From an uncultured Clostridia bacterium (GTDB lineage: Bacteria > Bacillota > Clostridia > TANB77 > CAG-465): a stretch of 45,615 bases of DNA. The stretch is from assembly GCA_944383035.1 (NCBI GenBank), contig CALWOE010000003.1, forward strand, positions 1 through 45,615, written 5' to 3'. Both the position numbers and the translations under genes were made by a program. Below are positions 33,885 to 44,978 of the stretch, one piece after another. The notes beneath the pieces are model-generated. The model was not told where the DNA came from, searched no databases, and saw nothing but the letters and a program-made list of their open reading frames with translations. Position 1 is the stretch's first letter. Every line of letters starts with the position of its first letter.

Positions 33885-35510
33885 ATGGCAAGTTGTTTAG
33901 GTATTTATTTAGGCAGCGATATAGTAAGATATGCTAAATTAGATATTGATGCCAGTAAAAATGTAGAACTCAAAAATTATGGTGTTAGATTTGTAAAAGG
34001 AAACCTTAAAGAAGTATTAAGCAATATTGTTGAGGAAACTAACTCACAAGGATTGCCAATTGCTATTAATCCCGAAAACAGCATTTATTTTAATACCCAA
34101 ATGTTTGAACAAAGTGAACAAATAGGCACATATATAAAAGATGTTGTAAATATGGAATTTGAAGCATGGTGCGAAAAAAATGCTAAATCAAAAGAAAAGT
34201 ATAATCATGTTTATATGCTATCTGATTTAAAAGGTTCAGATAACAAAAGAAGTTTGATTATTAACCTTTTAGAAAAAAGAGAATTAGAAGAACAAAGCAA
34301 GATTGGGGATAACGATGTTACTAATATGATTCCTGGTCAGCTTACAACTGTTTCTCTTGTTCCAAAAGAAGAACAAAATTATATTTTGGTAGATTTAGAT
34401 ACAAAACTTGTAGTTACAACAGTTTTAAATGGTAAGATTGGTAATATTAGTTATAGTGAAAATGGAATGCGTAAAATTTTTGCGGATATGCAATTAAGAC
34501 TTGGTTCATATCAAAAAGCATATGAAGCATGTAAACAGATTAATGTTTATTCTGAAGATGGAAATACAAATAATGATCCAGCGCTAGAAAAAATTGTTGA
34601 ACCAGTTTTACAAAATGTTTTAAAAACTGTACTTGTTGAAGTCAATAGAAACAGAAAGCAAATTACTAAAGTATTGATAAGTGGTTCAGGTATATTATTT
34701 ACTAATATTGATATATTATTTAGTGAATTTTTAGGTGTAAAAACTGAAATATTAAAGCCAAGTTTTGTTAATGCTAAAAATGGTATTAAAAATATAGCTG
34801 AAGTTTTAGAAACAACAGAAGCAATATCTCTTGCATATGAAGCTATAAATCATAATTTTAAAGAATTAGAATATATAGTCGGAAATAAAAAAGTAAAAAG
34901 AGATGTTAAAGATTGGTTTAAAAAATTAACTACAAAGAAAAAAGAAGAACTAAAAGAAATAGCAAAAGAGAGAAATGTAGATAAGGTTGTAGATCCAGAT
35001 GCAATACCATCAAATTTAGTTTGTGTGGCAATAGTATGTTCAATATTTGCTGTTTCATATTTAGCATTCTCTATAATATTTAATATTGTAAGTAATAATT
35101 CAATTAAAAGACTTGATGCAAAAAGAGCTGAAGTTGAAAAAGCTACACAAGAAGTAATGTCTGATTATACATATATATCTTCAAATACTTCTCAATATAC
35201 AGAAATTACTGATAGAGTAGAATCTATAATCAAACAAATAGAAAATGGTGAGATTGGTAAGTTCCATACATATAATGTAGCTGCATTTATGCAAAATATT
35301 CTAAAAATCACACCAAACGCAGTTGTCTTAAAATCTTTAAGTTCTGATGATGATAAGAATGTAACTATAGTTGCTCGATCTGCAAGTTATCCAGATCTTG
35401 GATATTTCTTAGCACAATTAAAAGCAGATGGAACTTTGAAAAATATAAAAATTAAAAATATTACAAATGGTAGTACTTCAGAAATTGAGATAGGTGGTGA
35501 GCTTCCATGA
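33885..35510 (+). CDS. PilM-PilN fusion protein
   Basis: Type IV pilus inner platform. Residues 1 to about 350 look like PilM, an actin-like cytoplasmic protein: LGIYLGSDIVRYAKLD phosphate-1-like start, YILVDLDTKLVVTTVLNG, and ITKVLISGSGILF. A basic linker (KDWFKKLTTKKKEELKE) leads to one TM helix (about 377-400), followed by a coiled coil and a ferredoxin-like domain (NAVVLKSLSSDDDKNVTIVARS, FLAQLKADGTLKNIKI), which is PilN. The two are separate genes in most bacteria. 541 aa; start ATG with AAAGGAG. Its stop overlaps the next start (ATGA). Confidence 0.85.
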   Translation: MASCLGIYLGSDIVRYAKLDIDASKNVELKNYGVRFVKGNLKEVLSNIVEETNSQGLPIAINPENSIYFNTQMFEQSEQIGTYIKDVVNMEFEAWCEKNAKSKEKYNHVYMLSDLKGSDNKRSLIINLLEKRELEEQSKIGDNDVTNMIPGQLTTVSLVPKEEQNYILVDLDTKLVVTTVLNGKIGNISYSENGMRKIFADMQLRLGSYQKAYEACKQINVYSEDGNTNNDPALEKIVEPVLQNVLKTVLVEVNRNRKQITKVLISGSGILFTNIDILFSEFLGVKTEILKPSFVNAKNGIKNIAEVLETTEAISLAYEAINHNFKELEYIVGNKKVKRDVKDWFKKLTTKKKEELKEIAKERNVDKVVDPDAIPSNLVCVAIVCSIFAVSYLAFSIIFNIVSNNSIKRLDAKRAEVEKATQEVMSDYTYISSNTSQYTEITDRVESIIKQIENGEIGKFHTYNVAAFMQNILKITPNAVVLKSLSSDDDKNVTIVARSASYPDLGYFLAQLKADGTLKNIKIKNITNGSTSEIEIGGELP

Positions 35511-36256
35511 TGCCAGAGAGTAAAACAAAAGCATTAATTTCTATTCTTCTTATTGTTATATCAGTAGCTATAATAGTTTTTTCAATGTGGAAAGGTTTAA
35601 AAATAGGGAATTTTGAAATCTTGTCAATTGAAGGAATACTTGCAAAAAGAGATACAGTTATAGCAGCAGAAGAAAAATTAAATGATGCAAATGATGAATA
35701 TGAGCAAAGCATATCAAGAGTAAATACAGCAAAAAATACTTTCGATAAAGAAAAAGAAAAATATGAAGCTATTAGTGATGAAACTATAAGTATTGTAAAA
35801 GAGGCAACATTAGAAGATGATTATGATATTGAATATATTTGGGTAACACTTGGAAATTATGCTAAAGCAAATAATTTAAATATAATATTATATGAACCAG
35901 GTAGTGATGATGATAGAACACAAACTCAAATAACAGATGAAGAAGAAACAACAACAAATACAACTACTAATACAACAACAACTCAAAATAATGTTACAAC
36001 TATAACAGAAGGAACTAATGAAGAAGGTTTAACAAATAATATTAATGAAGATATTACAAATAATTCTTCATCAAGTTCAGATGATTCAGTATTATCAATA
36101 CAAGTTACTGGTAGTTATATAGATTTATGTGATTTTGTATTTGAAGTTGAAAATGATGATTCTTTAAGATTTAAACTTGATAACATTAGTATGTCAGGTA
36201 GTTCTCAAGCTGTAACAGCAACATTTGATGTTAAAAATACAATAGTAATTAAATAG
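35507..36256 (+). CDS. PilO-like pilus assembly protein
   Basis: PilO partner of PilN by position and architecture: short cytoplasmic start, TM helix (about 8-27), coiled coil (about 46-90), then an extracytoplasmic ferredoxin-like domain. The domain is split by a low-complexity Thr/Asn/Ser/Asp-rich segment (about 140-200). The final part, LSIQVTGSYIDLCDFVFEVEN and FKLDNISMSGSSQAVTATFDVK, matches the PilO C-terminal pattern. 249 aa. The ATG overlaps the pilM-N stop by 4 bases, indicating translational coupling. The low-complexity insert is unusual. Confidence 0.8.
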   Translation: MMPESKTKALISILLIVISVAIIVFSMWKGLKIGNFEILSIEGILAKRDTVIAAEEKLNDANDEYEQSISRVNTAKNTFDKEKEKYEAISDETISIVKEATLEDDYDIEYIWVTLGNYAKANNLNIILYEPGSDDDRTQTQITDEEETTTNTTTNTTTTQNNVTTITEGTNEEGLTNNINEDITNNSSSSSDDSVLSIQVTGSYIDLCDFVFEVENDDSLRFKLDNISMSGSSQAVTATFDVKNTIVIK

Positions 36257-36272
36257 AAAGGAGCTATAATTT

Positions 36273-36701
36273 ATGAATAAAACATATATTTTAACATTTT
36301 GTATTTCATTACTTACATTTTTTGTAGTAGCAGTTATAGCTCTACTATTACTTATTCCACAACAAGGAAAAGTTTTGAATGGAACTATAACAAAGTATGA
36401 TGGAATAACAAAATCTGAATATACTTTTGAAAAGACAAAAGATATATCAAAAGATGCACTTGTTAATGTTCATGAAATTACTGCAGATGATTTAAATACT
36501 TTCAAAGAGAATAACCAATATAGAGCAGAAAAAGATAATCCATTCTCTGAAAATACCGGTTTAAAATCAGATGGAACATATGCAGATGAAGAAGGAAATG
36601 GAAGTACATCATCTGGCAGTTCACAAGCACAACAAGATGCGATAGATAAAACAACTAATAGTAATGGTGGAGTAGCTAACCCACCAGCTACAACAAAATA
36701 A
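36273..36701 (+). CDS. Small pilus-operon membrane protein, PilP-like
   Basis: 142 aa with one N-terminal TM helix (about 6-28), an extracytoplasmic stretch, a conserved-looking RAEKDNPFSENTG block (about 85-97) and a Ser/Gly/Gln-rich disordered tail. The DNPF motif and gene order after pilO recall PilP or GspC-like connectors, but there is no pilotin lipobox, so the name is tentative. Start ATG with AAAGGAG; 16-bp gap from pilO. Confidence 0.55.
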   Translation: MNKTYILTFCISLLTFFVVAVIALLLLIPQQGKVLNGTITKYDGITKSEYTFEKTKDISKDALVNVHEITADDLNTFKENNQYRAEKDNPFSENTGLKSDGTYADEEGNGSTSSGSSQAQQDAIDKTTNSNGGVANPPATTK

Positions 36702-36713
36702 GGAGTGAAATTT

Positions 36714-37214
36714 TTGAAAAAAGACAAAATAAAAAATATAGCAATAATAATATTAGTTGTAATAATTATAATTCTTGCAATATTTTTAATAATGAGTAAA
36801 ATTAATCAAAAAGACTATACTGAGATTTCTAAACTTACACAAAAGATTCAGGAATCTCAAAAAGAATTATCTTTATACTTAGGAAAGATGAAGTCTGATA
36901 CATATGGTATTTATAATGATATACAAATATTATCAGGAGTAGTTACAGAAGATAAAAAAGAAGAAATAAAAGATACAAATGATAAAGTTTTAACTCCTAT
37001 AATTGATCTTTCTAGTAAAAAAGAAATTAATAATAAAGTATATTATAAAGTAAATACTACTAATTTTAATCAAATATTAAAAATGGACCTGCCACTTTAT
37101 GATAATCAAGTTACTTGGTATATTGAGGATGGAAATTTATTAAAAGTTGATTTTCAAACAGAACCTGAATGGTGGTCAAGTAATTTTAATTATTTAAAAG
37201 TCGGTAATAATTAA
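36714..37214 (+). CDS. Unknown membrane protein of the pilus operon
   Basis: 167 aa. The start is chosen as TTG 36714, since AAGGAG at 36700-36705 covers the alternative GTG at 36705. One TM helix (about 8-29) is followed by a short coiled coil (QKIQESQKELSLYLGKM) and a soluble domain ending in WYIEDGNLLKVDFQTEPEWW. I know of no family. Its position between the PilP-like gene and the pilins suggests an extracytoplasmic assembly or pilus-base role. Confidence 0.6.
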   Translation: MKKDKIKNIAIIILVVIIIILAIFLIMSKINQKDYTEISKLTQKIQESQKELSLYLGKMKSDTYGIYNDIQILSGVVTEDKKEEIKDTNDKVLTPIIDLSSKKEINNKVYYKVNTTNFNQILKMDLPLYDNQVTWYIEDGNLLKVDFQTEPEWWSSNFNYLKVGNN

Positions 37215-37289: not shown

Positions 37290-38132
37290 ATGAAAGCAAA
37301 CAAAAAGGGTATATCCCTAATCGTATTAGTTGTAACTATTATAGTTATAATTATACTAGCAGCTGCTGTTATTATGAATTTAAATAATAATAACCCAGTA
37401 AAAAGCGCAAATGCTGCTAAATACATGAGTGATAGAGATAACGTACAATCTGCTATTACTATGTATATATCAAAATTATATTCAATAAAAAGATCTGAGT
37501 TAGTTATCAACAAAGGAGATAACTTACATATGGGACCAAATGCATTTTCAGATGGAATTGGTAGACTAGTAGTTCGTTTCTCAGTACCAAGTGATTATGT
37601 AATCGATGCTGCTGCAAAACAAACTGGTTATGAAAAATTTGTTACAGGTTTAAATGCTGGTGATGCTTATACTGAACTATTAGAACAAGAAGATTTAGGA
37701 GAAACTCCTGTTGCTACTAATCCAAACCATTATGAAAATAAAGGTTATGTTAAAAAAATAGCAAAATTTGATTCAAATGACAATCAATCAATACACTTTA
37801 CAATGCCAGATTATAATACAAATTATAACTGGAGTATGACAAGTGCTGGTAATGTTGTACTTGGTGTACGTGCTGATGGTACAACAGGACTTGCAGATGT
37901 AACAGATACATATTTTGGAGATGCAGAAGGAAAAGTTACACATACATATAAAGATGATAAAGGTGTAGATATTCCAAATGTAGATTCACCAGAAGATTAT
38001 TATAAATGGTTACATGGAACTTTAGTTAATGATCCTGGAGCTTCAAGATATGATGCTACAGAAAATAATATATTTAGTGCAATAGGCAATGGTACACCAT
38101 ATAATGCTGGTACATTTGGTCAAACTAGATAA
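37290..38132 (+). CDS. Type IV pilin 1
   Basis: Prepilin with a short basic leader (MKANKKG), cleavage expected after Gly7, and a hydrophobic helix ISLIVLVVTIIVIIILAAAVI. Position +5 of the mature form is Val, not the usual Glu. The 280-aa protein has a soluble domain whose segments alternate between near-identity with pilin 2 (to about residue 108; VKKIAKFDSNDNQSIHFTMP through YFGDAEGKV; terminal FGQTR) and divergence (about 110-145 and 220-240). Abundant, well-initiated (GGAGGGG), and likely the major or co-major pilin. Confidence 0.85.
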   Translation: MKANKKGISLIVLVVTIIVIIILAAAVIMNLNNNNPVKSANAAKYMSDRDNVQSAITMYISKLYSIKRSELVINKGDNLHMGPNAFSDGIGRLVVRFSVPSDYVIDAAAKQTGYEKFVTGLNAGDAYTELLEQEDLGETPVATNPNHYENKGYVKKIAKFDSNDNQSIHFTMPDYNTNYNWSMTSAGNVVLGVRADGTTGLADVTDTYFGDAEGKVTHTYKDDKGVDIPNVDSPEDYYKWLHGTLVNDPGASRYDATENNIFSAIGNGTPYNAGTFGQTR

Positions 38133-38191
38133 TAATCAAATATTAAAATATATTATAATTAGTGGTTAATAATATTAAAATAAAGCTTGAT

Positions 38192-38224
38192 ACTAAAATT
38201 ACCTATTTTAATGGTAATTTTAGT
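38192..38224 (+). other. Stem-loop between the two pilin genes
   Basis: A perfect 12-bp stem (ACTAAAATTACC/GGTAATTTTAGT) with a 9-base loop and no T tract. It probably protects or punctuates the pilin transcript rather than ending the operon. Confidence 0.6.
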
Positions 38225-38262
38225 TATCAATATGTATTGTATGTATTATAAATTTAGATTAG

Positions 38263-38287
38263 AACATAAATTATTTTAATTTATGTT
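38263..38287 (+). other. Stem-loop before pilin 2
   Basis: AACATAAATT/AATTTATGTT, a 10-bp stem with a 5-base loop, equivalent to the hairpin at 37223-37250. Confidence 0.6.
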
Positions 38288-38333
38288 TTGATAAATATAT
38301 TTTATATTATTAAATTTTTTTAGGAGGGGCTTT

Positions 38334-39161
38334 ATGAAAGCAAACAAAAAGGGTATTTCCCTAATCGTATTAGTTGTAACTATTATAGTTATAATTATAT
38401 TAGCGGCTGCTGTTATTATGAATTTAAATAATAATAACCCAGTAAAAAGTGCAAATGCTGCTAAATACATGAGTGATAGAGATAATGTTCAATCAGCTAT
38501 TACAATGTATGTATCAAAATTATATTCAATAAAAAGATCTGAGTTAGTTATTAACAAAGGTGACAACTTACATATGGGACCAAATGCATTCTCAGATGGA
38601 ATTGGTAGACTAGTAGTTCGTTTCTCAGTACCAAGCGATTATGTAATTGATGATGCAGCTCAACTAACTGGTTTAGAAAAATTCGTTGCTGGTTTAAATG
38701 CTGGTGATGCAGATTCAGCTACAAATGTTGGATATGTTAAAAAAATAGCAAAATTTGATTCAAATGATAATCAATCAATACACTTTACAATGCCAGATTA
38801 TAACACAAATTATAACTGGAGTATGACAAGTGCTGGTAATGTTGTACTTGGTGTACGTGCTGATGGTACAACAGGACTTGCAGATGTAACAGATACATAT
38901 TTTGGAGATGCAGAAGGAAAAGTATCACATACATACTATGATGATGATGGTACAGTATTAGATGATGATGATATTGTTACTGGTGCTGTAGCAGGAAATA
39001 ATGGAAAATTTGACTCACCAGAAGATTACTATGTATGGTTACATGGAACATTAGTTGGTGATCCAGGAAAAACAAAATATAATGCTGCTAAAGATCAAAT
39101 ATTTAATTCAATAGGTAGTGGTACACCATATAATGCTGATACATTTGGTCAAACTAGATAA
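38334..39161 (+). CDS. Type IV pilin 2 (tandem paralogue)
   Basis: 275 aa with the same basic leader and Gly7 cleavage site as pilin 1, and again Val at mature +5. The first 100 or so residues and a central block of about 60 residues are almost identical to pilin 1, at DNA level as well. Two segments differ: a shorter central variable loop (about 110-128) and a longer Asp/Gly-rich one near 205-230 (DDDGTVLDDDDIVTGAV). The pattern suggests tandem duplication with later exchange. Confidence 0.85.
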   Translation: MKANKKGISLIVLVVTIIVIIILAAAVIMNLNNNNPVKSANAAKYMSDRDNVQSAITMYVSKLYSIKRSELVINKGDNLHMGPNAFSDGIGRLVVRFSVPSDYVIDDAAQLTGLEKFVAGLNAGDADSATNVGYVKKIAKFDSNDNQSIHFTMPDYNTNYNWSMTSAGNVVLGVRADGTTGLADVTDTYFGDAEGKVSHTYYDDDGTVLDDDDIVTGAVAGNNGKFDSPEDYYVWLHGTLVGDPGKTKYNAAKDQIFNSIGSGTPYNADTFGQTR

Positions 39162-39227: not shown

Positions 39228-39301
39228 TCCCAATATTATATGTATGTTTTAGAGTATAAGAATATGTATTGTAAAATGTATATATGACAGGAGGGAATAC
39301 A

Positions 39302-40108
39302 GTGGATTTAGAACTTTTTTTAAATATATTTATAATAGTTTGCATGTTTATAATTGGAAGTTTATTTGGAAGTTTTTTCTCACTTGCAACATATAGAATT
39401 CCAAGAAGACAAGATATAGTAGCAACAAGATCATATTGTCCAACTTGTAAACATAGGCTAAACTTTTTTGATTTAATACCTGTATTAAGCTATATATTCT
39501 GTTTAGGAAAATGCAGATATTGTGGTGAAAAGATTAGTTTAAGATATTTTTTACTTGAAACAATAAATGGTGTTATATTTGTACTGATGTATTTAGTATT
39601 AGGATATAATTTAAAACTTGTAATTGCTATTTTAATTTATGCTATTTTATTTGTTATAATAGGATCATATATAATGTCAAAAAAGATGACAGATGAAGAA
39701 AAAAAAGAAGTTGTAGAATTAAAACTTAGTAAAAAAAGAGGTGTATTTATATCTGAAATTGTTGTTGGAATGATAGCTTTTTCTATATTTCTTGCAACAG
39801 CTCTTGTTTTAACGAGAAACTATACAACAAATTCTGTATATACAATTGCAAATGCTAATGCATATAATTTTGCATTAAATAGTATTGAAATAGCACTTGT
39901 AAGTGATTATGATGAGTTAGAAGATTTTACATTAAATCAAACTATAGATAATATTGTTTATACCTCAAATGTTACAATAGAAAAATATAGTGAAACTGGT
40001 AATGACATAGAAGATATAGTAAAGAAAATTAATGTAAAAGTAAATTATACAGTAAATGGTGAAAATAAAGAAGTAAGTTTAAATACTTTAAAAGGAAAGG
40101 TGTTGTAG
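39302..40108 (+). CDS. Prepilin-peptidase N-domain fused to a pseudopilin
   Basis: 268 aa; GTG 39302 is the start, since AGGAGGG at 39290-39296 lies inside a longer frame from 39284. Residues 1-105 match the N-terminal domain of prepilin peptidases: TM1, GSFFSLATYRIPRR, zinc cysteines YCPTC (46, 49) and CRYC (71, 74), then TM2. After TM3 (about 106-124) the aspartic protease domain with its GxGD motif is absent. Instead comes SKKRG (143-147) and VFISEIVVGMIAFSIFLATALVL, a class III prepilin signal with Glu at +5, followed by a small extracytoplasmic pseudopilin-like domain. Predicted topology puts SKKRG on the cytoplasmic side, where prepilin peptidase cleaves. No frameshift is apparent. Confidence 0.75.
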   Translation: MDLELFLNIFIIVCMFIIGSLFGSFFSLATYRIPRRQDIVATRSYCPTCKHRLNFFDLIPVLSYIFCLGKCRYCGEKISLRYFLLETINGVIFVLMYLVLGYNLKLVIAILIYAILFVIIGSYIMSKKMTDEEKKEVVELKLSKKRGVFISEIVVGMIAFSIFLATALVLTRNYTTNSVYTIANANAYNFALNSIEIALVSDYDELEDFTLNQTIDNIVYTSNVTIEKYSETGNDIEDIVKKINVKVNYTVNGENKEVSLNTLKGKVL

Positions 40109-40109
40109 T

Positions 40110-40586
40110 ATGCAAAAAAGATCTGGTATAACAATGCTTTCTATGGTAATATATGTAACATTATTTTTTGCATTTACAGCTCTTGCAATATCAATGGGAA
40201 GCAATACGAATTATTCTTCTTTAGTTCAAAAAGGAAAGTTGTATATAAATGAAGAAGCTTCAAAAATACAATATAATTTAGTAAATAGTGCAAAGTCAAG
40301 TGATGATATAAATAATATATATGGTAAGTTAGTGTTTTCAAATAATGATGAATATACTTATGATAACGCTACAAAAAAACTATTAAAAAATGGTGGAGTA
40401 CTAGCAACAGATGTTGAAGAATTTAAAATAATAGATGTATATAACATGGACTTTGTAAATGACGAAGTATATAAAAAAATAGATACAAGTATACCAAGTA
40501 CTTGCGTTGAGATCAAATTAAAAAAATATGGGCAAGAAAAAAAAGTACAAATATTTGTATCTGCAGGAGATGAAGTAAATGAATAA
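40110..40586 (+). CDS. Minor pilin-like protein
   Basis: 158 aa with the leader MQKRSG and a hydrophobic segment ITMLSMVIYVTLFFAFTALAI. Position +5 is Ser. The soluble part, with KIQYNLVNSAKSSDDINNIYGKLVF, CVEIKLKKYGQEKKVQIFVSAG, looks like a PilW/ComGF-type minor pilin. Starts 1 bp after the fusion gene and overlaps the next gene by 8 bp. Confidence 0.7.
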   Translation: MQKRSGITMLSMVIYVTLFFAFTALAISMGSNTNYSSLVQKGKLYINEEASKIQYNLVNSAKSSDDINNIYGKLVFSNNDEYTYDNATKKLLKNGGVLATDVEEFKIIDVYNMDFVNDEVYKKIDTSIPSTCVEIKLKKYGQEKKVQIFVSAGDEVNE

Positions 40587-40785
40587 GAAAATAAAAGGAT
40601 CTGCTATAGTTGTTGTAATGTTAGTTTCAATAGCATTTTCTGTTTACGTTACATCTACATATCTAGAGCAGGAACATTTTAATTTATTACAAACTAAATA
40701 TGAAAATAATTTAAAAGATATTTATGAAAAAGATATTAATAATATCCAAGATTATTATAATAAAGTTTTAGAAAACATTAAATAA
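40579..40785 (+). CDS. Small PilX/GspK-like membrane protein
   Basis: 68 aa with MNKKIKGSAIVVVMLVSIAFSVYVTSTY at the N terminus, which resembles the PilX-type start, then a short charged helix. No larger domain is present. Overlaps the preceding gene by 8 bases and lies 22 bp before pilB. It may be a very small minor pilin or accessory subunit. Confidence 0.6.
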   Translation: MNKKIKGSAIVVVMLVSIAFSVYVTSTYLEQEHFNLLQTKYENNLKDIYEKDINNIQDYYNKVLENIK

Positions 40786-40807: not shown

Positions 40808-42445
40808 ATGTTTGAAAGTGTAAAAGCAAGAAGAAACCCAGTTGGTGTTGAGTTTATTAAAAGAGGACTTTTAACAGAAGTACAAGTAGATAGGGTACTT
40901 GAATATCAAAAAGATCATAAAGATCTAAAATTTGGTGAAATAGTAGATATTCTCGATATGTGCGATAAGAAACAATTATTAGAAACTTTAGCATATAAAA
41001 TGCAAGTTACACCTGTAATGTTAGATGGTGATTTGGATGTAAATCCAGTAAATTATTTACCACGTGATGTTATTATAAATTATAAAGTTCTTCCTTTTGA
41101 TTTAGAGGGAAATAAATTAAAAGTTGCTTTCTGTGATCCACAAAATGCAACAAAAGTTCGTGAGATAGAATTACTTCTTATGAATCAAGGCTATGATATG
41201 GAAGTATATCTTACACTTTATACTAGTATAATGCGTCAAATATCTAATATTAGAACTGTAACAACAAGTTATGTTGATAAAGAAGAAAAAGATATTACAA
41301 AATTAATCGATAATATCATTGTTACAGCAATGCAAAAAAGAGCTTCAGATATACATATAGAACCAATGGAAAATAAAGTTAGGGTAAGATATAGAATTGA
41401 TGGTGAACTTATAACTGTAACAGAACTTCCAAAGGATAGACAAGATATAATAACAGGAAGAATAAAATCAATTTCTGGAATGCATCAAGAAATTGTATAT
41501 GACCAAGATGGAAGTATAACAACTTATGATGACTATAGCATTCGTGTATCTTCACAAAAAAATGTATATGGTGAAAAATTCGTTTTAAGACTTTTAAAGA
41601 AAAATGTTGACAAAAAAAACTTATTTGAACTTGGATTTTTTGAAGATAAAGAATTAGTTGAAAAATCTTTTGATAAAAGAAATAGTGTTATAGTTGTTTG
41701 TGCACCAACAGGAGAAGGTAAAACAACAACTTTATATAGTGTTCTTGAATATTTAGATAGACCTGAAATAAATATTATATCAATAGAAAATCCAGTTGAA
41801 CGTAGATTACCAGGTATTAACCAAGTAGAAATTGGTAATAATGTTACATTTGTATCTGCTTTAAGAACTGTTTTAAGACAAGACCCTGATATTATCTTGG
41901 TTGGTGAGGTAAGAGATGAAGAAACAGCAAAAACAGTTATTGAAGCTGGTCAAACTGGTCACTTAGTTTTAACTACAATACATACAATTGATGCAATCGA
42001 GGCGATTACAAGACTTAGAAAAATGGATGTATCAAATTATGATATCTCAGCAACACTTGTAACTTCAATATCACAAAGATTAGTTAGAAGACTTTGTAAT
42101 AAATGTAAAAGACCACATAAATTAACAGAAGATGAATTAAAATATATAGATAAGGTTACAAGAAGAACTGGAGTAAAATTTGATTTAGAAAATGCAGAAC
42201 TTTTTGAACCAGTTGGATGTGAATATTGTGATAATATAGGTTATTACGAAAGAATAGGTGTATTTGAAGTATTATGTTTTGATGAATATTTAAAAGATAT
42301 GATATCAGATGGAAAATCAACAATAGATATAAGAAAATATGCTTTAGAAAATACTGAATATAAACCACTTATTGTAGATGGTATAAATAAAGTATTACAA
42401 GGACATACAACAATTGATGAAATAAGAAGAAAACTAACAATATAA
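40808..42445 (+). CDS. pilB: Type IV pilus extension ATPase PilB
   Basis: Hexameric motor that drives pilus growth, 545 aa. An N-terminal MshEN-type domain (about 10-150) is followed by the ATPase core with ASDIHIEP (N2 domain), Walker A CAPTGEGKTTTLYS (near 298, with Glu where Ser is typical), Asp box SIENPVERRLPG, Walker B DIILVGEVRDEETA, and His box TTIHTIDA. The four-cysteine zinc motif is CNKC ... CEYC near 430-478. Start ATG with AAGGAGG. Confidence 0.94.
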   Translation: MFESVKARRNPVGVEFIKRGLLTEVQVDRVLEYQKDHKDLKFGEIVDILDMCDKKQLLETLAYKMQVTPVMLDGDLDVNPVNYLPRDVIINYKVLPFDLEGNKLKVAFCDPQNATKVREIELLLMNQGYDMEVYLTLYTSIMRQISNIRTVTTSYVDKEEKDITKLIDNIIVTAMQKRASDIHIEPMENKVRVRYRIDGELITVTELPKDRQDIITGRIKSISGMHQEIVYDQDGSITTYDDYSIRVSSQKNVYGEKFVLRLLKKNVDKKNLFELGFFEDKELVEKSFDKRNSVIVVCAPTGEGKTTTLYSVLEYLDRPEINIISIENPVERRLPGINQVEIGNNVTFVSALRTVLRQDPDIILVGEVRDEETAKTVIEAGQTGHLVLTTIHTIDAIEAITRLRKMDVSNYDISATLVTSISQRLVRRLCNKCKRPHKLTEDELKYIDKVTRRTGVKFDLENAELFEPVGCEYCDNIGYYERIGVFEVLCFDEYLKDMISDGKSTIDIRKYALENTEYKPLIVDGINKVLQGHTTIDEIRRKLTI

Positions 42446-42478
42446 TTTTTGAAATTAAACAAAAGAAGGAGAAAAAAT

Positions 42479-43588
42479 ATGGATTTATTAAATCAAATAC
42501 TTCAAAAAGCTATAAGTCTAGGTGCAACTGATGTTCATCTTGCACCAGACGTTGTACCTGTATATAGAATAAGTAGGAGACTGTTTTATGATGATAGTAA
42601 ATTTCCACTTTCTAAAATGTCACTTGTTCAAATCGTAGAAGATTTTTACAAAGAAAGACCAAATTTAGAAAAAGATTTTGAGGAAAGAAGACAATTAGAT
42701 GTTTCACATACTTACGGTGATCATAGATTTAGAATTAATATATCACTTACAAAAGGTATTCCAACTTTTTCTATTAGAATAATTCCAAATACAATGCTTG
42801 ATGTATCAGATCTTGGTTTAAAAGACATTATTAATAAAATGAAAAAGATTAATTCAGGATTAATACTTTTAACAGGTAAAGTAAATTCTGGTAAATCTAC
42901 TACTTTAAATGCTTTTGTTCAAGAATTAAATAAAGAAGTAAATAAAAAAATAGTAACTTTAGAAGATCCAATTGAATATGAGCATAAATCAAATAAATGT
43001 ATTATAATTCAAAAAGAAATTGGAAGAGAATCTGATGTTTTAAGCTATTATGATGGATTAATAAATCTATTGAGAGAAGATGCAGATATTGCAATTTTAG
43101 GAGAAATTAGAGATAAAAGAACAATGGATGTAGCACTTGACTTATCAGAATCTGGTGGACTTGTAATAGGTACACTACATACACGTTCATGCGGTGAGAC
43201 ACTAGAGAGAATTATAAGTATGTATCCTCCTGCTGATCAAGCAACAATTAAAAATACAGTTTCATCTGTATTAAAAATGGTTGTTTCTCAAAAGTTAGTA
43301 GTTGATACAGAAGGAAAATTACTAATGATACCTGAAATTATGATGGTAAATCATACTATTGCAGCACTTATAAGACAAGAGAAATTTAGTGTTGGTGACT
43401 TAGAAGATTCAATTCATGCACAACGTGATATTGGTTCTTTAAGTTTTGAATATTCTTTAGCTGATTTATATTCAAGGGGAAAAATTGATATGGAAACAGT
43501 AAAAGCAAATGCAGATGAAAATAGAATGGAAACAATTAAAAACCTAATTTTAACTTATGGTGGTAATTTAGATGATGTTGATTTTTAG
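42479..43588 (+). CDS. pilT: Type IV pilus retraction ATPase PilT
   Basis: Retraction motor, 369 aa, cytoplasmic. Start ATG 42479 (AAGGAG 8 bases before); a TTG at 42449 precedes the ribosome binding site. GATDVHLAPDVVPVYR at the N terminus, Walker A TGKVNSGKSTTL (about 132-143; PilT usually has GPTGSGKST), LEDPIEYEHKS, Walker B IAILGEIRDKRTMD, His box GTLHTRSCGETLERI, and ALIRQEK in place of the AIRNLIRE motif. It has no zinc motif, in contrast to PilB. Presence of PilT implies retractile pili. Confidence 0.9.
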   Translation: MDLLNQILQKAISLGATDVHLAPDVVPVYRISRRLFYDDSKFPLSKMSLVQIVEDFYKERPNLEKDFEERRQLDVSHTYGDHRFRINISLTKGIPTFSIRIIPNTMLDVSDLGLKDIINKMKKINSGLILLTGKVNSGKSTTLNAFVQELNKEVNKKIVTLEDPIEYEHKSNKCIIIQKEIGRESDVLSYYDGLINLLREDADIAILGEIRDKRTMDVALDLSESGGLVIGTLHTRSCGETLERIISMYPPADQATIKNTVSSVLKMVVSQKLVVDTEGKLLMIPEIMMVNHTIAALIRQEKFSVGDLEDSIHAQRDIGSLSFEYSLADLYSRGKIDMETVKANADENRMETIKNLILTYGGNLDDVDF

Positions 43589-43607: not shown

Positions 43608-44978
43608 ATGCCAAATTATAAATATAAAGTTGTTTTTAGTGATGGAAAAATTGGTAGAGGAACAATAATGGCAACTAGTAAAGCACATGCCATTGAGAGT
43701 CTAAAAAAAGATAACAATCAACCTGTAAAAATAAAAAGACTTCGTGATAGTTCTCAAAGATATAAAAAACTAGATTATAATAAAATAGCAAGACAAGCTA
43801 AAAAACAACAATTAGAGGCAATAAGAAAAAATAATTCTGAAAAAAGAAAAAAGAAGACAAATGATGAAAAGAAGAAAATGGCATTAAAAGATTTAGCAAA
43901 AATTGAAGTACATCCATTTCAAATGATAACAACTGAGGATATTATAATTTTTGTAAATAATTTATATATCTTAAAAAAAGCTAGATTTAATAATGTTCAA
44001 GCCTTACAAGCAATATACGATGGAACAGAAAATACAAGATTTAAAGATATTATAGAAGATATTCTAATTGGTGTTCAAGCCGGTGAAAGAATGTATAAAG
44101 TAATGGAAGCTTATCCAAAAGTTTTTAAACCAATGTTTATAAACTTTATTAGAGTTGGTGAAGAAACTGGTACATTAGATGATGCCTTACTTTATGCTAG
44201 AGATTATATAGAAAACTCTACAAAATTACAAAAGAAAATTAGAAATACAGTAATTCCTAAGGTTTTACAATTTTTTGCAATAATGATAATGATGTTTGTT
44301 GCAGTTATTTACGGTGTTCCGATACTAGAAGATGTATATGAAATGTTTAATTCATCTACACAAGTTCCAGAAGCTACAATGGCAACTTTACATGCAGCTA
44401 GATGGCTAATGGATAATTGGTGGTGGATAGTTATAGCAATTGGTTCTGTGATAGCAGGATTTTTAGTATATAGAGCAACTCCAAGAGGAAGATATGCTAT
44501 AGATAAATTTATGGTTACAAATAAACTTTTTGGTCCACTTATGCTTAATTTAACAGTAAGTAAATTCTTTAGAGCGATGCTTCTTAATTTAAAGAATGGC
44601 ATGAGAATTCAAGAAAGTTTAGAAATTTCAAAAAATGTAACATCAAATTATTATTTCTTATCAGCAGTAGAAGCTGGTAAAGTAAATGCTTTAAGTGGTG
44701 AATCTTGGATAGAACCATTTATACAAAATAAATTGTTTAATCCTATGACTGCTGAAATGATAACTATAGGTATGCAAACTGATTTGGCTGAAATGATGGA
44801 AAAAGTTAATGAATATATTGAAATGAGAATAGAAGAATCATTACAATTATTTATTAAATTATTACCAAATGTTACATATAGCTTTGTTGGTGTAGCACTA
44901 ATAGCATTTGTTATTGTAGTTGTTGTACCACTTGTAAATGTTTATATGGGATCATTTATAGAAATGCCAGCAAGATAA
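43608..44978 (+). CDS. pilC: Type IV pilus inner-membrane platform protein PilC
   Basis: GspF/PilC family platform protein, 456 aa. The N-terminal ARASP-like segment MPNYKYKVVFSDGKIGRGTIMAT is followed by a Lys-rich linker (about 45-95). Two T2SSF repeats follow, each with helices and TM segments (TM near 223-245, 270-288 and 425-447). FINFIRVGEETGTLDDAL and the second-repeat AEMITIGMQTDLAEMMEKV are the conserved cores. Start ATG with GAAAGGGG. Last gene of the pilus operon. Confidence 0.92.
   Translation: MPNYKYKVVFSDGKIGRGTIMATSKAHAIESLKKDNNQPVKIKRLRDSSQRYKKLDYNKIARQAKKQQLEAIRKNNSEKRKKKTNDEKKKMALKDLAKIEVHPFQMITTEDIIIFVNNLYILKKARFNNVQALQAIYDGTENTRFKDIIEDILIGVQAGERMYKVMEAYPKVFKPMFINFIRVGEETGTLDDALLYARDYIENSTKLQKKIRNTVIPKVLQFFAIMIMMFVAVIYGVPILEDVYEMFNSSTQVPEATMATLHAARWLMDNWWWIVIAIGSVIAGFLVYRATPRGRYAIDKFMVTNKLFGPLMLNLTVSKFFRAMLLNLKNGMRIQESLEISKNVTSNYYFLSAVEAGKVNALSGESWIEPFIQNKLFNPMTAEMITIGMQTDLAEMMEKVNEYIEMRIEESLQLFIKLLPNVTYSFVGVALIAFVIVVVVPLVNVYMGSFIEMPAR

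Follow-up and report, generated by a model that had tools for sequence, protein, structure and literature searches.

The pilus operon and its fused gene

The window, that is the whole 45,615-nucleotide stretch of DNA analysed, from an uncultured Clostridia bacterium, carries a pilus operon in which a single reading frame joins the N-terminal (A24_N) domain of a prepilin peptidase to a prepilin. The features of the operon and of the fused gene are collected in Table 1. The claim of the earlier note that such a fusion exists holds, including its coordinates, the A24_N match and the prepilin that follows. For a longer frame from the ATG at 39284, a ribosome-binding site was searched upstream and none was found.

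Table 1. Genes and features of the pilus operon in the window (TM, transmembrane; aa, residues of the fusion protein).
Feature	Position	Strand	Evidence and remarks
PilM-type protein	33885..35510	+	alignment; co-occurs with the fusion in 19/36; name from position and size
PilN-position membrane protein	35507..36256	+	conserved gene order; name from position
orf142, small membrane protein at the PilO position	36273..36701	+	conserved gene order
orf169, small membrane protein	36705..37214	+	conserved gene order
PilA1, major-pilin-like, Val at +5	37290..38132	+	
PilA2, near-identical tandem copy of PilA1, Val at +5	38334..39161	+	
Ribosome-binding site AGGAGG of the fusion gene	39289..39294	+	7 nt upstream of GTG 39302
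Fusion gene	39302..40108	+	268 aa: A24_N domain, TM3, linker, I-type prepilin
A24_N domain	39350..39595	+	aa 17-98; Pfam PF06750 E 8e-30; own-genome profile match
Third TM helix	39611..39682	+	aa 104-127; AlphaFold2 model
Gly147, position -1 of the prepilin cut site	39740..39742	+	invariant 18/18
Predicted mature I-type minor pilin	39743..40105	+	aa 148-268; GspI/EpsI fold
Glu152 (+5) of the predicted mature I pilin	39755-39757	+	invariant 18/18
J-position minor pilin, Ser at +5	40110..40586	+	
Short K-position minor pilin, Val (hydrophobic) at +5	40579..40785	+	
PilB extension ATPase	40808..42445	+	TIGR02538 E 2e-115, below the curated cut-off
PilT retraction ATPase	42449..43588	+	gene order and PilT/PilB similarity among relatives; name inferred
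PilC platform protein	43608..44978	+	T2SSF domains; GspF/PilC models below cut-off

In PilD, four cysteines bind zinc, and removal of the zinc stops N-methylation but not cleavage; two neighbours of the third Cys, one a Gly and the other basic, also matter for methylation (PMC3584216). The corresponding cysteines of the fusion are Cys 46, 49, 71 and 74 (CxxC...CxxC), which are invariant in 18 of 18 fusions, while Gly69 is kept in 17 and the basic residue 70 in all 18. The aspartic-protease half is missing, as had been claimed: Peptidase_A24 (PF01478) has no Pfam match in the fusion frame, the C-terminal part of which is a pilin. Consequently, the protein is not classed as a peptidase. In the alignment with relatives, the joint lies just past the column of their first catalytic Asp (G-I-D). 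The NCBIfam models returned nothing useful for the fusion or for the separate peptidase described below, and a sequence search for solved structures related to the PilD N-domain returned none. Matches of the N-domain to opsins (E 0.01) were weak and were taken as chance.

An AlphaFold2 model of the fusion, built from an input alignment of 18 sequences (mean pLDDT 79.9), places helices at residues 3-32, 80-100 and 104-127, followed by the linker, by a 53-residue helix (148-200) that starts directly after Gly147, and by four strands. The proposal that the cut site faces the cytoplasm is supported, as is the same location for the zinc domain; this is the side on which the peptidase works. The fusion carries a class III prepilin signal (KKRG/VFISE, with the slash at the cut), a charged stretch followed by a hydrophobic helix and then a small sheet.

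The pilin half of the model was compared with known structures using VIA-align. The top match is EpsI (2ret_A, Z 10.7, rmsd 2.4 over 82 residues), and other top matches are E. coli GspI (3ci0_I, Z 10.4) and XcpV (9.7); the I-type PilA of S. sanguinis scores Z 7.2, too low to be relied on by itself. Residue 148 of the fusion is aligned to residue 1 of XcpI in 9a1f. Foldseek gave weaker results for this half, with a best E of 8e-3, likewise to XcpI. The N_methyl profile (PF07963) has no match in the fusion and matches stand-alone homologues in L075 (E 2e-5) and, marginally, L070. Because the modelled fold is GspI-like and genes at the J and K positions lie downstream, the fused pilin is, by structure prediction, an I-type (GspI/PilV-class) minor pilin; pilins of this class build the tip complex together with J and K. 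The earlier description of this part as pseudopilin-like is thus retained as regards a pilin and narrowed to the GspI class. The I pilin resembles GspI, EpsI and XcpV in its predicted fold, its Glu5, its class III cut site and its place before J- and K-like genes. Unlike these proteins, which have ordinary leaders, it has as its "leader" a three-TM enzyme domain of 147 residues; the range quoted for prepilin leaders is 6-51 residues (PMC6916266).

Within the operon, Glu at +5 is found only in the I pilin of the fusion; the uniqueness claimed for it is borne out by Val in both PilA copies, Ser in the J-like and Val in the K-like pilin. The same holds for this operon type in general, where J-like pilins have Ser and K-like pilins a hydrophobic residue at +5 and the I pilin alone is acidic. 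The order of an I pilin followed by J and K is conserved across four families (f1, the family of the fusion, and f3, f4 and f5). Glu5 is usually called essential for pilus assembly. Across the order, the major-pilin-like proteins of this pilus type nevertheless have no Glu at +5 (37290-39161 in the window; L062-L099): the residue is Val in 30/30 proteins of f1, almost always Ala in f3 and f4, and Ala, Ser or Thr in f5. The number of PilA-type copies among relatives ranges from 1 to 6, with six in L087. The PilT gene is absent from the locus in two genomes of the same genus, G002 and G024 (L082 and L090), which suggests pili without a retraction motor.

Conservation and origin of the fusion

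The earlier note raised the question of whether related genomes carry the same fusion, and it is found in 18 genomes of five genera, all within one family (f1). The 18 complete fusions align end to end, with 36-61% identity to that of the window. The A24_N part is better conserved than the pilin, with about 30 invariant residues, including the four cysteines; beyond this domain few residues are invariant, two of which are Gly-1 and Glu+5. In six pairs, the A24_N half has dN/dS ratios of about 0.03-0.17 and the pilin half has ratios of 0.13-0.34; both are under purifying selection. The PilM gene is present in 19 of the 36 f1 genomes, which are not independent of one another, and the A24_N gene occurs in exactly these 19; the A24_N half is never lost in f1 while the pilus locus is present. 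The named relatives returned by a close search are mostly metagenome-assembled genomes of gut Clostridia.

In the nineteenth genome, G011, the A24_N frame and the prepilin frame are two open reading frames that overlap at ATGA (L085:8429-9387). G011 is nested within its genus in the PilM-PilB-PilC tree (support 0.998), and the arrangement is therefore a later split or an indel; it might be a sequencing indel. As the parts stand there in two frames, the halves can exist as separate chains. This bears on the idea that the fusion is never cut, so that the A24_N domain and TM3 would anchor the I pilin as a scaffold at the assembly platform and bring the peptidase or new pilins to it. Such an arrangement would agree with the short linker and with a fusion fixed in the family. 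It is nevertheless improbable: not only does G011 encode the parts separately, but Gly-1 is invariant in 18/18 fusions despite a linker that varies freely in length and sequence, and an uncut I pilin, held by four TM helices, would be unable to pass from the membrane into the filament.

The linker also contains candidate internal starts, from an ATG 13-33 codons before the cut site, which would yield an additional prepilin with a short leader. A Met stands at the same place in 14 of the 18 linkers, and in the window an AGGA lies 9 nt upstream of it. However, this AGGA overlaps the codon of an invariant Gly, four linkers have no Met there, and a ribosome site is missing from most of the remaining linkers; real genes of the operon mostly have AGGAG or AGGAGG. 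An extra product of this kind is very unlikely, and as a general source of free pilin the internal start is weak by this survey of Met codons and ribosome sites.

The operons of the sister families f3, f4 and f5 encode an A24_N protein of 250-280 aa, mostly followed by a separate prepilin with an acidic +5 residue. In the canonical PilD columns, this protein has both catalytic Asp in 7/8 cases in f5, the first Asp in 19/20 but the second (GxGD) in none in f3, and neither Asp in f4 (3/3). In f1, the sequence after TM3, the old site of the first Asp, is replaced by the pilin. Read from these alignments, the operon PilD appears to have decayed by grades, being intact in f5, without GxGD in f3, without both Asp in f4 and replaced in f1. 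The Cys half persists after the catalytic loss in f3 and f4.

This stepwise loss of the catalytic half at one locus is what would be expected if the A24_N half were a decaying remnant of PilD that a neutral deletion had fused to the pilin and that was now being lost. That explanation is highly improbable for f1, where the A24_N half is the better conserved of the two, has the low dN/dS ratios and the invariant residues given above, and is kept wherever the pilus locus is present. According to the earlier note, relatives with separate complete genes at this place would mark the fusion as a local deletion artefact. Separate A24_N and pilin genes do exist in the sister families; the artefact reading fails, because an entire family has the fusion as a fixed trait, maintained by purifying selection, and most of the separate A24_N proteins have already lost catalytic residues. 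The occurrence in 18 genomes of five genera rules out an assembly or local-deletion artefact.

The family f1 is monophyletic in the PilM-PilB-PilC tree (support 1.0), and one fusion event is therefore enough. No fusion was found in other families of the order among the matches listed (385 genomes sampled), nor in other Clostridia and other phyla among 80 loci. Stand-alone A24_N proteins of 127-150 aa are present in pilus loci of f2 and of Lachnospiraceae; consequently, several lineages are able to maintain this half apart from the catalytic one. Examples of about 140 aa (L146:7944-8360, L155:7959-8381 and L168:2324-2761, from Lachnospiraceae and other Clostridia) lie in loci with ordinary Glu5 pilins. 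In f2 (L062, L066), a differently built type IV pilus locus has an A24_N-only protein of 127-134 aa, and the genome has two other A24 peptidase genes.

A peptidase on a second gene

Profile searches of the host genome (1.28 Mb, 99% complete) gave one A24_N match, which is the fusion, and one Peptidase_A24 match (PF01478, E 3e-19), a protein of 252 aa designated L001, the gene of which lies beside that of a YqeG-like HAD phosphatase on contig C45. L001 keeps TM1 with an "N..LP" remnant and has Asp92 and Asp155 (the latter in GFGD), and the zinc loop is absent. Both residues are invariant in 25/25 L001-type peptidases of f1, f3 and f5, in which the loop is without the Cys motif. The model of L001 resembles FlaK with a probability of 0.99, but with a Foldseek E of 0.41. 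The expectation that an intact peptidase would be encoded apart from the fusion is thus confirmed as regards a second gene with both Asp; a full-length PilD was searched for in the rest of the host genome and none was found, the zinc-loop-free peptidase being the only one there. Because A24_N occurs only in the fusion and both catalytic Asp are on L001, the two halves of PilD are, as judged from sequence, carried by two genes in a reciprocal split.

Both products can be compared with known enzymes. The fusion is like PilD/PulO (P. aeruginosa PilD) in having an A24_N domain with the methylation residues, three N-terminal TM helices and a place in the pil operon; it differs in that a pilin replaces the catalytic half and catalysis is assigned to a second gene without the zinc loop. 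L001 is like TadV, FppA and FlaK in having both Asp and no Cys domain. In contrast to these enzymes, which have no A24_N partner, it retains the "N..LP" remnant in TM1, and the pilus operon of its genome codes for an A24_N protein.

An A24 peptidase is present in 16 of the 19 genomes of the fusion set. The three in which it was undetected (G009, G024 and G027) are incomplete drafts (85, 92 and 96%), and incompleteness is perhaps the cause. The peptidase is also retained in 15 of the 17 f1 genomes without the pilus locus, nearly all of which lack a PilC-type platform. It is therefore not dedicated to this pilus and probably has other substrates. In a phylogeny of the catalytic domains, the L001-type peptidases of families f1, f3 and f5 group together with a support of 0.94. 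The position of this group relative to PilD, which bears on whether the two genes arose by duplication or separately, has a support of 0.05.

The complementary halves might together form one PilD-like enzyme of two chains, in which the zinc half completes the peptidase in trans, through folding, substrate capture or activity. The match between the halves is exact, the zinc loop of the partner is gone order-wide, and the A24_N half keeps the two TM helices that in PilD pack on the peptidase domain (PMC10191384). This explanation is nonetheless unlikely, given that the 15 pilus-less genomes keep the partner without any A24_N, where it must be useful alone, that TadV and FlaK cut without an A24_N domain, and that f5 genomes have an L001-type partner alongside a full PilD.

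Proposed function and meaning

The best reading, for which the chances are about even, is that the fusion is a polyprotein that is cut by the separate peptidase to give a zinc N-methylase domain and a tip I pilin. It is favoured because the methylation residues are kept and because a cytoplasm-facing three-TM part of 147 residues precedes the cut site. According to this reading, the bifunctional PilD would have been divided between two genes order-wide, with the zinc-loop-free peptidase on contig C45 doing the cutting and the operon copy keeping only the zinc-cysteine half, the part that serves N-methylation. In f1, the zinc half would then have been joined in frame to the next gene, that of the I-type minor pilin that initiates the tip. 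Three TM helices and the cytoplasmic zinc domain would form the "leader" of one chain, which the peptidase would cut after Gly147. Each translation would thus deliver a methylase domain in the membrane and a mature I pilin, in equal numbers and side by side, and the methylase would act on the N-termini of new pilins, above all on the I pilin. Cutting, methylation, substrate preference and the pairing of the two halves are what we infer here from sequences and models.

The suggestion that the N-domain is a scaffold that brings substrate to the peptidase gives way to the zinc N-methylase, which is more likely by analogy with PilD, since the residues needed for methylation are kept (PMC3584216). 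The I pilin is probably the main substrate of this methylase, because it is the only pilin of the operon with an acidic +5 residue. Mutations of Glu5 in the pilin of P. aeruginosa reportedly affect N-methylation (Macdonald 1993, cited in PMC4010543). Glu5 also serves pilus assembly (PMC5207764), so its presence is no proof of methylation, and it could be retained on the I pilin for assembly alone. A more specific proposal is that of a self-supplying cassette, in which an N-methylase is made joined to its own, possibly only, substrate and is freed by a peptidase encoded elsewhere, so that methylation would mark the initiating subunit alone. This remains a tentative and rather doubtful extension of the polyprotein reading. 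To our knowledge, no A24_N domain on its own has been reported to catalyse methylation.

Gene fusion and fission are known among the parts of type IV filament systems, such as the PilM-PilN fusion in C. difficile and the fission of TadB/TadC (PMC6916266, PMC6668835). Those cases concern parts of the machine, whereas here a domain of the processing enzyme is joined to its likely substrate. A search of the open literature, with subscription papers outside it, found no account of such a fusion.

The arrangement is best described as what appears to be a split PilD with its zinc half fused to a likely substrate. The two activities of PilD would have been cleanly separated by evolution, with relatives that form a graded series of intact, half-dead, dead and replaced copies. 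If the zinc half methylates alone, methylation could be removed with cleavage untouched, and the purpose of pilus methylation, so far unexplained, would be easier to test in this system. The pilus of this operon seems to consist of subunits that lack Glu5, the residue being confined to the tip subunit that is fused to the probable methylase domain. If the cassette reading is true, pilin methylation would have a specific role in the initiation or docking of the tip.
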